A DNA stretch of 64,000 nt from Azospirillum thermophilum (GTDB taxonomy: Bacteria > Pseudomonadota > Alphaproteobacteria > Azospirillales > Azospirillaceae), in the NCBI RefSeq assembly GCF_003130795.1, contig NZ_CP029352.1, forward strand, positions 1 through 64,000, given 5' to 3'. How positions within the stretch are numbered: the stretch's first letter is position 1; each line of letters opens with the position of its first letter. The translations under genes and the position numbers were made by a program. The notes below the pieces were generated by a model. The model saw only the letters and a list, made by a program, of their open reading frames with translations, ran no database searches and was not told the DNA's origin. This document shows positions 57,138 to 64,000 of the stretch, piece after piece.

Positions 57138-57453
57138 GGCACGTCCCCGCCGGTCCTGACACTGAGTATGTGCGAAGCAATAAACGCCTTACCAGTTGAT
57201 GTGTGGTTAACGTACCGCACCGCAAAACTCTTCCCGACGGAGTGACACCAAAATGCCACATGACCTGCGCGATCGATCGGGGTAGAGGACCATGTCGGGC
57301 CGGGACGGCCGCGGCGCAAGCCGCCGGCGGGGGACCGGCGCCGGTGCGGGCGGCGTGCCCCGAATGGCACCTTCCGCCAAGCCCAGGCTACTCTTAGATA
57401 GAGAACGGGCGGATAGAGGACGGGCCCATTCGCGGAGACCGGAGGAAGCACGG
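57138..57453. other. 316-base gap upstream of the patatin gene
   Basis: Should hold promoters for the small membrane protein and patatin. A single GGTTAACG lies at 57206. An in-frame ATG at 57292 would extend the patatin by 54 low-complexity residues and is less likely. Nothing else seen. Confidence 0.5.
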
Positions 57454-58481
57454 GTGAGCGGCTTGAAGATCGGGCTTGCGCTCGGCAGCGGGGCGGCCCG
57501 CGGCTGGGCCCATATCGGCGTGCTGCGGGCGCTGGAGGAAATGGGCATCAAGCCGGAGATCATCTGCGGCACGTCCATCGGCGCCGCGGTCGGCGCCGCC
57601 TACCTGACGGACCAGCTCGACGAGCTGCAGGGCTGGGCGCAGAGCATGGGGCTGCTCGGGCTGCTCGGCATCATCGACCTGACCTTCCGCAAGGGCGGCC
57701 TCGTCTCCACCGAACGCGCCTTCGAGCGGTTCCGCAACGACCGCAGCAGCGTGCGGATCGAGGATCTGCCGCGCCCCTTCGCCACGGTGGCGACCGACCT
57801 GTCCACCGGCCGCGAGATCTGGCTGCGCGAGGGGCCGCTGCTGGAGGCCGTCCAGGCCTCCGCCGCCATGCCCGGCCTGTTCCCGGCGGTGCGGCTCGAC
57901 GGGCGCTGGCTGGTCGACGGGGCGATGGTCAACCCGGTGCCGGTCTCGCTCTGCCGGGCGCTCGGCGCCGACGTGGTGGTGGCGGTCAACCTGAACAGCG
58001 AACTGGCGCCGCTCGCCCGGCCCGGCAAGGCGAGCCGCGCCGAGATGGCCGCGAAGGAGGCGGCCGCCAAGGCCGCGGCAGCGAAGGAGGCGGAGAAGGA
58101 GGCCGCCCTGGACGAGGTGGCGGTGCCGGCCGCCGCCGCGGGCGATGCCACCTCCCCCGCCCTGTCGCAGCTCACCGGGCAGATTTCCTCCTGGCTCGGC
58201 CGCCGGCCCAGCCGCCGCACCCGCTTCCTCGCCGACCAGCTCGACCATGCCTGCGAGCCGGTGCCCAACGTGCTGGAGGTGATGGCGGGCTCGATCGACA
58301 TCATGCAGGACCGCATCACCCGCTCCCGCCTCGCCGGCGAACCGCCGGACGTGCTGATCGCCCCCGGCTCGGCCATGTCGGCATCCTGGAGTTCGACCGG
58401 GCGGAGGAGGTGGTGGAGATCGGCTATGCCGCCGCCTCGATGCTGCGCCCGGCGATCGACCTGGCGTTGCGCCGGCTGTAG
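57454..58481 (+). CDS. Patatin-like phospholipase (RssA/NTE type), frameshifted near the 3' end
   Basis: About 342 residues. Starts SGLKIGLALGSGAARGWAHIGVL with the oxyanion glycines, then the nucleophile Ser41 in GTSIGAA and the Asp of the dyad in WLVDGAMVNPVPV near residue 152. A charged, Ala/Lys/Glu-rich helical insertion (about 200-240) separates two halves. GTG at 57454 follows GGAGG. The frame breaks in the C run 58361-58365; one extra C restores RLGHVGILEFDRAEEVV through the TAG at 58479-58481. Lipid hydrolase, substrate unknown. Confidence 0.88.
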
Positions 58482-58585
58482 GGCCGGTCGAAAAGCCGGG
58501 CGGGCCGGGAAACCAACGGGACCTCGGCCGGTTGTAGGAGGCAGCGCCGATCACGGCCGACCGACAACCGGAAGGGGACCCGCCC

Positions 58586-58759
58586 ATGACCAAGCAGCCG
58601 CACACCGAAGAGACGGTCAAGCACACCGACGACCAGCAGAACACCGGCAACCACAAGAAGCCGGACGCGCCTGACGCCAAGGGCGCCGACCGCTTCGGCG
58701 GCACCCGCGCCGGGGCCGGGAACGTGGAAGGCGGCTCCGGCGGCTCCCGCAAGGGCTGA
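58586..58759 (+). CDS. Small hydrophilic protein, 57 aa
   Basis: Read directly: ATG 58586 to TGA 58757-58759, with GGAAGGGGA upstream. The product is very polar, rich in Lys, Asp, Thr, Asn, Gly and Gln (KQPHTEETVKHTDDQQNTGN at the start, GAGNVEGGSGGSRKG at the end), probably disordered. Not recognised; small stress or desiccation-related proteins look like this but that is a guess. Confidence 0.55.
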   Translation: MTKQPHTEETVKHTDDQQNTGNHKKPDAPDAKGADRFGGTRAGAGNVEGGSGGSRKG

Positions 58760-59366: not shown

Positions 59367-59675
59367 ATGGACGAAACCCTTCTTGCCGAATTGCTGGAGC
59401 CGGTGCTCGGCGCCGCGGACCAGGAGGATGAGGATCTGTCGGAGGCGGTGAACCTCTCGGCGGAGGCGCTGGCGGCTCTCGGCGCCGTGGTGCTCGACCC
59501 CGACGGCCAGCCCGCCCGGGGGGTGAGCGACGAGCGGGCCATCGTCGCGGCGCTGAACACCCACGCCCACAACCTGATGCAGGCCGGCCGGCTGGACGAC
59601 GTGGTGGAAGCCCTGCAGGTGGCGGAACGGATCGGCAAGCTCGCCCGGCTGCCCCACCACCCCCGGACCGTGTAG
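59367..59675 (+). CDS. Hypothetical protein, 102 aa
   Basis: Not recognised. Acidic, helical: DETLLAELLEPVLGAADQEDEDLSEAV at the start, then ALNTHAHNLMQAGRLDDVVEALQVAERIG, which resembles one TPR-like helix pair. ATG 59367 is preferred with CGAGGA about ten bases upstream; ATG 59316 and 59265 are possible. Ends 116 bases before the Mak-TreZ-MalQ gene. Confidence 0.6.
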   Translation: MDETLLAELLEPVLGAADQEDEDLSEAVNLSAEALAALGAVVLDPDGQPARGVSDERAIVAALNTHAHNLMQAGRLDDVVEALQVAERIGKLARLPHHPRTV

Positions 59676-59791: not shown

Positions 59792-62700
59792 TTGCCGACC
59801 GCGCCCAAACCGAACGCTTTCCCCGGCCCGCTGGAAGGGGAGGCGCTGTCCCTCCTCCAGGACACGCTGCTCCCCGATTTCCTGCTGACGCGCCGCTGGT
59901 ATGCGGCGAAGGATGCGGGACGGCCGGTGGTGCGCGTGGTCGATGCGCTGCCCCTGCCGCTTCCGGGCGGGTCGGCACAGCTCTGCCTCCTGCGGGTGGA
60001 GCCGCCGGGGCGCGACCCCCAGCTCTACCAGCTTCCCCTGATCCTCGACCGCGGCGGCAGCGGCGGCGATCCCGCCACGCTGGTCGCCGCGGCCGACGCC
60101 CTGCCCTGGGCCGGGGACCTGCGCGACGGCTATGGCGAGGATGCGGTGATCCGCGCCTTCCTGGAGGCGATCCGCAGCGGGGCCGCCCCCTCCGCCGGGC
60201 TGAGCGGCCAGCGCACCGGCGCCTGCGAGGCGGTGCTCGACCGCATCGGGCCGGAGGCGCCGCTGCGGCGGTCGAGCGCCGAGCAGTCCAACACCTCCAT
60301 CCGCGTCGGCGACGCCGCCATCCTGAAGGGCATCCGCAAGCTCGAACCCGGCATGCATCCGGAGCTGGAGATGTCGCGCTTCCTGACCGAGGTCGCGAAG
60401 TTCCCCAACACCCCGCCGCTGCTCGGCTGGGTCGAGCGCACCAGCAGCTCGGGCAACACCACGCTGTGCGTGCTGCAGGGGCTCGTCCAGGGGGCGGAGG
60501 ACGGCTGGAGCCGGGTGACCGGACGGCTGAGCCGGCGGGTCACCCGCTTCGACGATTCCGACGCGGCGCAGGACCAGCAGGCGACCGCCCTGCTCCGCCT
60601 GCTCGGGCGACGCACGGCCGAACTGCACCGGGCGCTCGCCACTCCCGGCGACGATCCCGCCTTCACGCCGGAGCCGGCGACCCGCGAGACGGTCTCCGCC
60701 TGGGCCGACGGCGTGCGGCGGCTCGCCCGCCGGGTGATGGAGCAGCTCCGCCAGTCGATCCCGCGGCTCGACGGGGCGACCGCCGCCTATGCCCGCTCGC
60801 TCGCCGACGCCGAGGGGACGGTGATGGCGCAGATCGACGCGCTGACCCCGGCACGGGCCGCGCTGGCCGCCATGCGGCTGCACGGCGACTACCACCTGGG
60901 GCAGGTGCTGGTCGCCGGCGACGACGTGCAGATCGTCGATTTCGAGGGCGAGCCGATGCGCCCGCTGGCCGAACGGCGAGCCAAGCACTGCATCCTGCGC
61001 GACGTGGCCGGCATGCTGCGCTCCATCGCCTATGCCGCGGCCACCGCCCGCGCCGCCCTGCCGGACGACCTCGACGAGCCGTCCCGCGCCTCCCGCGAGT
61101 CCTGGATCGCCTGGTGGGAGGGGGCGGCGACCAACGCCTTCGTCGACGGCTACCGCGAGGCCATCGGCGACTGTCCCGGCTATCCGCGGGACGGCGAGAC
61201 GGCGAGCTGCCTGCTCAAGCTGTTCCTGCTGGAGAAGGCCTTCTACGAGATCGGCTACGAGCTGGCCAACCGGCCGGACTGGGTGGCGATCCCGCTGGCC
61301 GGCGTGCTGGGCATCCTGGGAGCCGACGCCGGACCGGACGTCGCCGACCATGTCGCCGTGCGGTCCGCCGGGACGCGCAGCCACTCGATGCCCTATGGCG
61401 CGCAGGTGCTGCCGGACGGCTCGGTCCGCTTCGCGCTGTGGGCGCCGACGGTCGACCATGTGTCGCTCTGGCTGGAGGAGACGCACGCGCTGCTGCCGAT
61501 GATGCGGCGCAGCGACGGCTGGTTCGAGTGGACGACCTCCCAGGCCCATGCCGGCACCCGCTACAGCTTCGAGTTGCCCGACGGGCTGCGCGTCCCCGAC
61601 CCGGCCTCGCGCTACCAGCCGCAGGACGTGCATGGCCCGTCGGAGGTGATCGACCCCACACTCTACCGCTGGGGCGACACCGCCTGGACCGGCCGGCCCT
61701 GGCACGAGACCGTGCTTTACGAGCTGCATGTCGGCACCTTCACCCCGAAGGCACCTTCCGCGCGGCCATCGAACGGCTGGACGATCTGGTGGAGCTCGGC
61801 GTCACCGCGATCGAGCTGATGCCGGTGGCCGATTTCCCCGGCGAGCGGAACTGGGGCTATGACGGCGTGCTGCCCTTCGCCCCGGACTCCCGCTACGGCC
61901 GGCCGGAGGACATGAAGGCCCTGGTCGACGCCGCCCACGAGCGGGGGCTGATGGTCTTCCTCGACGTCGTCTACAACCATTTCGGGCCGGACGGGAACTA
62001 CCTGCACGCCTACGCCGACGCCTTCTTCACCGACCGGCACAAGACCCCCTGGGGGGCCGCCATCAATGTGGACGGCCCGCGCAACGCGGCGGTGCGCAAC
62101 TTCTTCATCCACAATTCGCTCTACTGGCTGGAGGAGTTCCATCTGGACGGGCTGCGCTTCGACGCCGTCCACGCCATCCTCGACGACGGACCGAAGCACT
62201 TCCTGGAGGAGCTGGCCGAGCGGGTGCACGACCGCTTCCAGGGCCGCCGCCACGTCCATCTCGTGCTGGAGAACGACGCCAACCAGGCGCGCTTCCTCGC
62301 CCGCCACGCCGAGGGCGATCCGCACTGGCACACCGCCCAGTGGAACGACGACCTGCACCACGCGCTGCACAGCTTCGCGAGCGGCGAGGCCGGCGGCTAC
62401 TACAGCGACTATGCCGACGACCCGACGAAGCTCGCCCGCGCGCTGGCCGAGGGCTTCGCCTTCCAGGGCCACCCCTCCGCCTATCGCGACGGCGAGGCGC
62501 GCGGCGAGCCGTCCGCCCACCTGCCGCCGACGGCCTTCGTCGGCTTCCTGCAGAACCACGACCAGATCGGCAACCGCGCCTTCGGCGACCGCATCACCGC
62601 CATCGCCAAGCCGGAGGCGGTGCGCGCCGCCGCCTGCCTCTATCTGCTCGGCCCGCAGGTCCCCATGCTGTTCATGGGCGAGGAATGGGGCAGCGCCCGG

Positions 62701-64000
62701 CCCTTCCCCTTCTTCTGCGACTTCGGCGAGGAGCTGGCCGAGGCGGTCCGCCAGGGCCGGCGGGAGGAGTTCGCCAAGTTCCCCGAGTTCCAGGATCCGG
62801 AGGCGCGCAAGCGCATCCCCGACCCGACCGCGCCGGACACCTTCCAATCCGCCATCCTCGACTGGGAGAACCGCGACAAGGCCCCGCATGCCCGGTGGCT
62901 CGACTGGTACCGCCGGATGCTGGCCCTGCGCCGGAGCGAGATCGTGCCGCGGCTGGCCGGCGCGCCGGGCGGCACCGCCCGCTTCGAGGTGGTGGGGAAC
63001 GGCGGGATCCGCATCTGCTGGCGGCTCGGCGACGGCAGCCGGCTGCATCTGATCGCCAACCTGTCGGATACGCCGGTCCCCGGCCTGACCGAACCGTCGG
63101 GCCGCATCCTGTGGACCGAGGGCGGCGGGGTGCGCGACGGCGTGCTCGACCGCTGGTCGGTGGTCTGGTCGCTGGAGGACACCTCGGCGCTCGACCGGCT
63201 CGGCGAGCGGATGGGCATCGAGACGGAGTTCCGCAACGCCGCCGGCGAGACCGTCCGGGCCAGCGAGGAGACGATCCGCGCGCTGCTGTCCGCCATGGGG
63301 GTGGACGCCCCGGACGAGCAGGCGGCCGGCCGCCATCTGGAGGCGATGGAGCGGGCGGAGCTGTCCCGCGTCCTGCCGCCGGTCGTGGTCCAGCGCGTCG
63401 ACCAGTCGCCCTTCGCCGTCCCGGTGACGCTGCCCCAGGGCGCCGGCGCGCTGCGCTGGACCCTGACGCAGGAGGACGGCACGGTGCGGCAGGGCGACGT
63501 GCCGTTCGCCGACCTGCCGCTGATCCGCACCGCCGCCCTCGACGGCCACCCGGTGGAACTGCGCCGTCTGCCGCTGGGCGAGGCGCCGCCCGCCGGCTAT
63601 CACCGGCTGTCGGTCGAAGCCGGCGGACGGCAGGCCGCGACGACGCTGGTCGCCACGCCCGAGCGCTGCCACCTGCCGGCGCCGATCGCGCTCGGCGAGC
63701 GGCTGTGGGGCCTGTCGGTCCAGCTCTACACCCTGCGCAGCGCCGGCGACTGGGGGATCGGCGACTTCGGCGACCTGATGCGGCTGACCGACATCGCGGC
63801 GGCGCGCGGGGCGGCGGTGATCGGGCTGAACCCGATGCATGCGCTGTTCCTCGACAACCCGGCGCATGTCAGCCCCTATTCGCCGGCGAGCCGCCTGTTC
63901 CTCAACCCGCTCTACATCGACGTCACCGCCCTGCCGGAGCTGATGGCGTGCGAGCCCGCCCGCGCCCGCATCGCGTCGGAGGCGTTCACCCGCGCGCTGG
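59792..64000 (+). CDS. Fused maltokinase-TreZ-MalQ enzyme (5' part; continues beyond window; one frameshift)
   Basis: More than 1400 residues. Residues 1-520: maltokinase (Mak/Pep2) with LTRRWYAAKD, SAEQSNTSIRVGDAAILK and the kinase core MRLHGDYHLGQVLVAGDD, IVDFEGEPMRPLAERR; makes maltose 1-phosphate. Then a GH13 TreZ (malto-oligosyltrehalose trehalohydrolase) domain: GYDGVLPFAPDSRYG, nucleophile Asp in GLRFDAVHAI, acid in LENDANQARF, FLQNHDQIGNRAFGDR. From about 63175 a GH77 MalQ (4-alpha-glucanotransferase) domain begins: RLWGLSVQLYTLRSAGDWGIGDFGDL. The frame breaks in the C run 61743-61746 (one extra C repairs it); no stop lies between TreZ and MalQ. TTG start at 59792. Confidence 0.85.

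Follow-up and report, generated by a model that had tools for sequence, protein, structure and literature searches.

Within the 64,000-nucleotide window analysed here (positions 1–64000 of contig C1 in the 6.78 Mb, nine-contig genome of Azospirillum thermophilum, hereafter G000), we found a fused gene on the forward strand that joins maltokinase (Mak), malto-oligosyltrehalose trehalohydrolase (TreZ) and the 4-alpha-glucanotransferase MalQ in one chain of about 1,860 residues, just ahead of treY. The domain architecture is firmly supported. We think it probable that this Mak-TreZ-MalQ polypeptide is trifunctional and works as a branch-point enzyme on maltodextrin; we infer what the fused chain catalyses, which way the flux runs and what, if anything, is gained from proximity (coupling). 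In the G000 assembly the gene appears as two overlapping frames, which carry Mak, TreZ and the start of MalQ and are joined by a one-base shift at 61741–61747, inside TreZ.

The first frame (frame +2) stays open between 59747 and 61819, with a TTG start at 59792 preceded by a Shine-Dalgarno-like "ggag". Between 59792 and 61741 it encodes Mak, a linker, a CBM48 domain and the first ~105 positions of TreZ. The second frame (frame +1) is open from 59755 and encodes, from 61747 to the window edge at 64000, the remainder of TreZ and MalQ (open reading frames, Pfam and NCBIfam for both). The Mak domain (59840–61318) matches positions 22–529 of the NCBIfam profile TIGR02457 over residues 17–509 of the first frame, with 425.6 bits against a cut-off of 375. 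The TreZ match (TIGR02402, 61424–63078) is split between the frames, with profile positions 1–105 at the end of the first (116 bits) and positions 108–542 in the second (593 bits; cut-off 538.8); in intact triple fusions of the same genus TreZ is full-length in one frame and scores 692–736 bits against the same cut-off. MalQ (MalQ_N and Glyco_hydro_77; 63178–64000, only its start being in the window) exceeds the cut-offs in the second frame, with 467.5 bits for TIGR00217 and 399 bits for Pfam GH77 (PF02446). The domain search found no TreS domain in the fused gene, so it does not have the TreS-Mak architecture. A first-pass annotation of the window had proposed this domain set and order, with Mak and TreZ in one frame and TreZ running into MalQ without a stop to the window edge; both profile collections bear this out, and the second frame remains open for a further 1.4 kb beyond the window, to a TGA at 65365–65367.

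Relatives carry the same fusion without interruption. A domain-by-domain check of 36 genomes of the same genus placed Mak, both TreZ parts and MalQ in one stop-free frame in 29, two of which are cut by a contig end (G004 beyond a full MalQ match, G008 within MalQ); a stricter motif rule misses four of the 29 (G003, G011, G022 and G028), which the domain checks recover. In the remaining seven, contig ends divide the gene (G017), treZ and malQ are separate (G009, G027 and G032), or TreZ does not exceed the cut-off (G029, G031 and G036). A stop codon between Mak and TreZ or between TreZ and MalQ in a corrected read, or two separate genes at the same junction in close relatives, had been named in the first-pass annotation as grounds for abandoning the fusion. 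Neither turned up at this locus: the 29 single frames contain no such stop, and the separate treZ and malQ genes of G009, G027 and G032 belong to clades distinct from those of the fused TreZ and MalQ. We therefore rejected separate neighbouring genes as an explanation, because 29 relatives hold one uninterrupted frame.

Position-specific GC content indicates that the reading phase switches at 61720–61750, and that this is the only switch in the part of the fused gene inside the window; there is therefore one frame shift, inside TreZ, as NCBIfam matches also place it. The shift is absent from the intact copies of the 29 relatives examined, and is therefore no part of the normal gene. Programmed frame shifting was rejected on the same ground, since these relatives need none. 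A second phase switch, at ~58380, lies inside an RssA-like patatin gene (57292–58674, forward strand) about 3.4 kb upstream of the fused-gene shift, and is probably a second assembly indel; assembly indels are therefore the likelier cause of the shift in the fused gene. That the G000 gene was truly broken recently, as a pseudogene or a phase-variable gene, is in our view unlikely: the shift does stand in the assembly and a distant second TreZ in the genome could cover the loss, but this is a single lesion in about 1,857 codons, every checked residue is kept, and the phase switch in the patatin-like neighbour fits assembly indels. Taking these points together, we regard an indel introduced in sequencing or assembly as the most likely cause of the broken frame.

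We aligned 30 chains, comprising those of the 29 relatives and the G000 chain read through the shift with X. The acid triads (D/E/D) of TreZ (GH13) and GH77, located by family motifs, were kept in all 30; in G000 the catalytic codons are presumably those at 62161, 62269 and 62560 for TreZ and, outside the window, at 64615, 64759 and 64915 for MalQ. All 30 chains also kept the phosphate-binding lysine of Mak, its P-loop EQSNTS (60281–60298), HGD (60881–60889) and DFE (60938–60946), apart from the first P-loop position, and the maltose-binding K-x2-Y-x3-Y (codons at 61235, 61244 and 61256) was present in 30/30 chains as well as in 6/6 double fusions lacking TreZ and 5/5 triples outside the genus. 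The residues of the ATP-site loops and of maltose binding are those named in PMC4306142. Consistent with these assignments, G000 Mak matches solved maltokinases at 1e-36 to 1e-34, and in the relative G026 the TreZ part matches solved trehalohydrolases at 1e-124 to 1e-119 and the MalQ part a solved 4-alpha-glucanotransferase at 1e-148. Ratios of nonsynonymous to synonymous substitution rates (dN/dS) in eight close pairs were 0.12–0.24 for Mak, 0.07–0.15 for TreZ and 0.11–0.23 for MalQ, indicating from sequence comparison that each of the three domains is under purifying selection. In a predicted structure of G026 residues 1–1140, the kinase half was confident, residues 515–538 had predicted local distance difference test (pLDDT) values below 50, and the TreZ half was poor.

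Beyond the checks described above, Mak and TreZ matches shared an open frame of 1,783–2,048 codons in 40 of the 82 genomes of the order, a set that includes G000. These 40 are 36 of 44 same-genus relatives together with G077 (Indioceanicola), G089, G090 and G100; seven of the Azospirillum triples (G062, G063, G064 and G066–G069) rest on Mak and TreZ matches with equal open-frame length. Purpose-built profile hidden Markov models confirmed Mak, TreZ and MalQ in G077, G089, G090, G100 and Belnapia moabensis. In six genomes, namely G101–G105 (one genus, Skermanella-type) and Azospirillum G027, a single frame holds Mak and MalQ but no TreZ, and we saw no TreZ remnant at the Mak-MalQ junction in the four of these double fusions that were aligned. 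Because Mak-MalQ also occurs without TreZ, the distribution suggests that the Mak/MalQ pair is the core of the fusion. A wider contig scan returned at least 587 stretches, at least 573 of them from relatives; among the 80 of these that were examined, a triple was present in five (L082–L086) and Mak-MalQ in one (L130, on the same contig as in G105). Among 385 genomes sampled from the class, fused Mak of this type was found only in G000 and G103; the longer Mak frames of G109, G146 and G261 are TreS-Mak, and those of G355, G358 and G432 (1,226–1,494 codons) fell outside the check.

In a Mak tree of 50 rows, from which a long-branched Thermoplasmatota row was left out, the fused Mak domains and one free Mak (G061) formed one group apart from TreS-Mak (100/99). 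The two-domain protein of G027 was nested among the triples in this tree (100/100), and TreZ was therefore probably lost from the fusion there; in a quick MalQ tree G027 stood beside all 18 Azospirillum triples, with the weaker support of a Shimodaira-Hasegawa-like approximate likelihood ratio (SH-aLRT) of 83. Mak-MalQ could also be an older form than the triple, depending on where the Skermanella-type proteins branch. The quick TreZ tree placed the free TreZ of six genomes (G092, G099, a Roseomonas metagenome-assembled genome (MAG), Falsiroseomonas, Azorhizobium and Granulicella) inside the fused TreZ clade. Free TreZ or MalQ proteins in the fused clades may represent either fission or survivals that predate the fusion. 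In G092 and G099, both TreZ and TreY (quick TreY tree) fall in the fused clades. The loci concerned (L205 and L207, respectively) are treZ-treY pairs with no Mak or MalQ in the stretch, and GlgE and Mak were not found in these two genomes.

The first-pass annotation had pointed to treY, treS and glgE as genes to look for nearby. In G000, treY starts 41 bases downstream of the fusion and has an AGGAG of its own; the genome contains no other treY match. Contig C7 carries a cluster of TreS-Mak, GlgX and a second MalQ, with GlgE about 113 kb from that cluster. Enough downstream sequence was available at 32 other triple loci (27 of the 29 relatives, G077, G089, G090, G100 and Belnapia), and treY was the next gene at 28 of them, as it was in 6/6 Mak-MalQ doubles. 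GlgE was present in all 46 genomes with a triple or double fusion and in 8 of the 33 other genomes of the order, from which we left out G000, G017 and G065 (fusion broken or fragmented; all three have GlgE). Within a single genus (g35), GlgE occurred in 2/2 fused genomes versus 0/9 others. All 46 fused genomes also have another Mak, whose frame of 1,116–1,293 codons is the size of TreS-Mak; this second Mak was domain-checked as TreS-Mak in G000 only. The suggestion made in the first-pass annotation that one chain would link the GlgE and TreY-TreZ routes thus gains indirect support, with treY next to the fusion and without a second copy in G000, and with GlgE in every fused genome; the linking activity itself is what we infer.

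On the reading that we favour, TreY and the TreZ domain would convert the ends of linear maltodextrins to free trehalose, leaving shortened chains, and the MalQ domain would re-pool short chains, returning substrate to TreY and releasing maltose. The N-terminal Mak domain would phosphorylate that maltose to maltose 1-phosphate for GlgE without any need for TreS, and GlgE would add the maltose 1-phosphate to alpha-glucan, such that the fusion would place a TreS-independent bypass and a trehalose exit on one chain. In Pseudomonas aeruginosa, where these steps belong to separate proteins, maltohexaose and ATP gave maltose 1-phosphate in the presence of MalQ and TreS/Pep2, which is a TreS-independent route, and strains lacking treY or treZ still contained maltose 1-phosphate (PMC8084333; restated in PMC11046441). 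We give even weight for and against a more specific proposal, namely that Mak-TreZ-MalQ and Mak-MalQ are an undescribed TreS-independent maltose 1-phosphate synthase that would hard-wire the MalQ bypass to GlgE and set the split between trehalose and GlgE polymer by competition or channelling. In P. aeruginosa the two products answer to different stresses, trehalose serving osmotic tolerance and GlgE-made alpha-glucan desiccation (PMC8084333). If our reading is correct, a single chain with both maltodextrin exits would offer a natural experiment on the division of flux in bacteria, with the natural Mak-MalQ variant as a built-in comparison that lacks TreZ.

The fusion might instead do no more than equalise the amounts of three activities, with no channelling and with its Mak as a redundant duplicate of the kinase in TreS-Mak. 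We regard this as a lesser but real possibility. It would account for the second Mak of TreS-Mak size in 46/46 fused genomes, and for the presence in G000 of TreS-Mak, a second MalQ, a second TreZ and GlgX; a redundant copy is, however, harder to reconcile with the separate grouping of fused Mak (and the free Mak of G061) from TreS-Mak, with purifying selection on fused Mak, and with the persistence of Mak and MalQ as a pair in two separate lineages that lack TreZ. It is also conceivable that the kinase domain acts on a sugar other than maltose, for instance glucosamine or the glucose that MalQ releases. Some Mak paralogues are known to use other substrates, among them an actinobacterial glucosamine kinase (PMC6520443), and the domain has a weak match to the NCBIfam GlcN_kinase profile. 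That match reaches 101 bits against a cut-off of 550, whereas TIGR02457 is above its cut-off, the maltose-binding residues (PMC4306142) are kept in every aligned chain, and the match to solved maltokinases far exceeds that to glucosamine kinase (2e-18), making another substrate improbable. Assignment as a glucosamine kinase was rejected, the signature Q-x2-RE-x2-YA-x3-LP-x-W (PMC6520443) being present in 0/30 chains.

Several observations weigh against a trifunctional branch-point enzyme. We found no biochemistry on any fused protein in the literature searched, and the G000 gene is frame-shifted as assembled. The TreS-Mak-sized Mak in every fused genome makes the fused Mak dispensable for maltose 1-phosphate in principle; most of the 46 genomes belong to one genus, so the association with GlgE does not amount to 46 independent cases. 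No treY follows the triple at 4 of the 32 loci (L069 in G022, L070 in G028, L201 in G089 and L203 in G100), at each of which at least 4.5 kb of downstream sequence was covered. The first P-loop residue varies (A in 22, V in 7 and G in 1 of the 30 chains), and one of the five triples from other genera lacks the exact EQSNTS. For the Mak-TreZ half the model is weak (mean pLDDT 67.6, predicted template modelling score 0.48) and silent on domain contacts. The Roseomonas MAG has separate treZ and malQ genes, with both proteins inside the fused clades. Finally, weak in-frame starts with Shine-Dalgarno-like sites occur at the junctions, with a place shared by two of nine genomes per junction (G000 and G022; G001 and G020). 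The consensus scan for internal restart gave only isolated sites (in G000, G001, G020 and G022), none of them common to more than two of the nine genomes; restart could occur at these sites, and the chain might also be cut by proteolysis.

Fusions of related parts have been described. TreS-Mak (TreS/Pep2; PMC4306142, PMC11046441) likewise joins a maltokinase to a trehalose/alpha-glucan enzyme able to supply maltose, but Mak is C-terminal to TreS there, whereas here Mak is N-terminal, TreZ and MalQ come after it, and TreS is absent; moreover, fused Mak forms a separate group in the tree, and G000 carries both proteins. The MalQ-TreY fusion (NF011077, PRK14507) similarly joins two neighbours of the treZ-malQ-treY cluster, but the partners of MalQ in the present fusion are TreZ and Mak, with TreY encoded separately; for PRK14507 the TreZ-MalQ frame scored 848 bits and the separate TreY 1173 bits, against a cut-off of 2148. 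The P. aeruginosa operon glgA-treZ-malQ-treY-glgX (PMC8084333) has the same treZ-malQ-treY order and the same activities, but in separate proteins, whereas here they are on one chain with its own Mak. In GlgX-TreZ fusions and in GlgX-MalQ (NF011082, PRK14510), TreZ or MalQ is joined to a cluster neighbour, but the partner differs and the kinase is absent; we observed GlgX-TreZ in one open frame at L113, L142 and L185–L187, in Accumulibacter, a Methylococcaceae MAG and three Alphaproteobacteria genomes. A profile model with a branching enzyme in its remainder matches residues 24–518 of the fused chain over its positions 11–479, but that remainder is not TreZ-MalQ, and the score is 135 bits against a cut-off of 2376.

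We found no description of the triple or of Mak-MalQ in the literature searched, although an earlier mention is possible in the gene-cluster survey of Chandra et al. (2011). This agrees with the first-pass annotation, which knew of no described enzyme with this domain set. The sequences are public and the parts known; it is the Mak-TreZ-MalQ combination that appears to be undescribed within that literature. One annotated public record, from Azospirillum ramasamyi in a plasmid collection, has a single coding sequence of 1,868 amino acids named only treZ, followed by treY, and metabolic models that rely on such names can overlook the kinase and the glucanotransferase.

Directly upstream of the fusion, positions 59367–59675 of the forward strand encode a 102-amino-acid protein of unassigned function, for which Pfam gave only a sub-threshold tetratricopeptide repeat (TPR) match. 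A homologue search at the fusion loci found this protein at 29 of 40 (28 of 39 distinct loci, L064 and L210 being one replicon), with 71–83% identity and in Azospirillum only; it is possibly an operon partner of the fusion. The second TreZ of G000 is free-standing (C2:1052373–1053989, L075), with no treY in the surrounding stretch. A second TreZ match above the cut-off was present in 32 of 36 same-genus relatives, and in the quick TreZ tree the second TreZ proteins of G000 and G035 grouped with Desulfobulbus and Verrucomicrobia rows.

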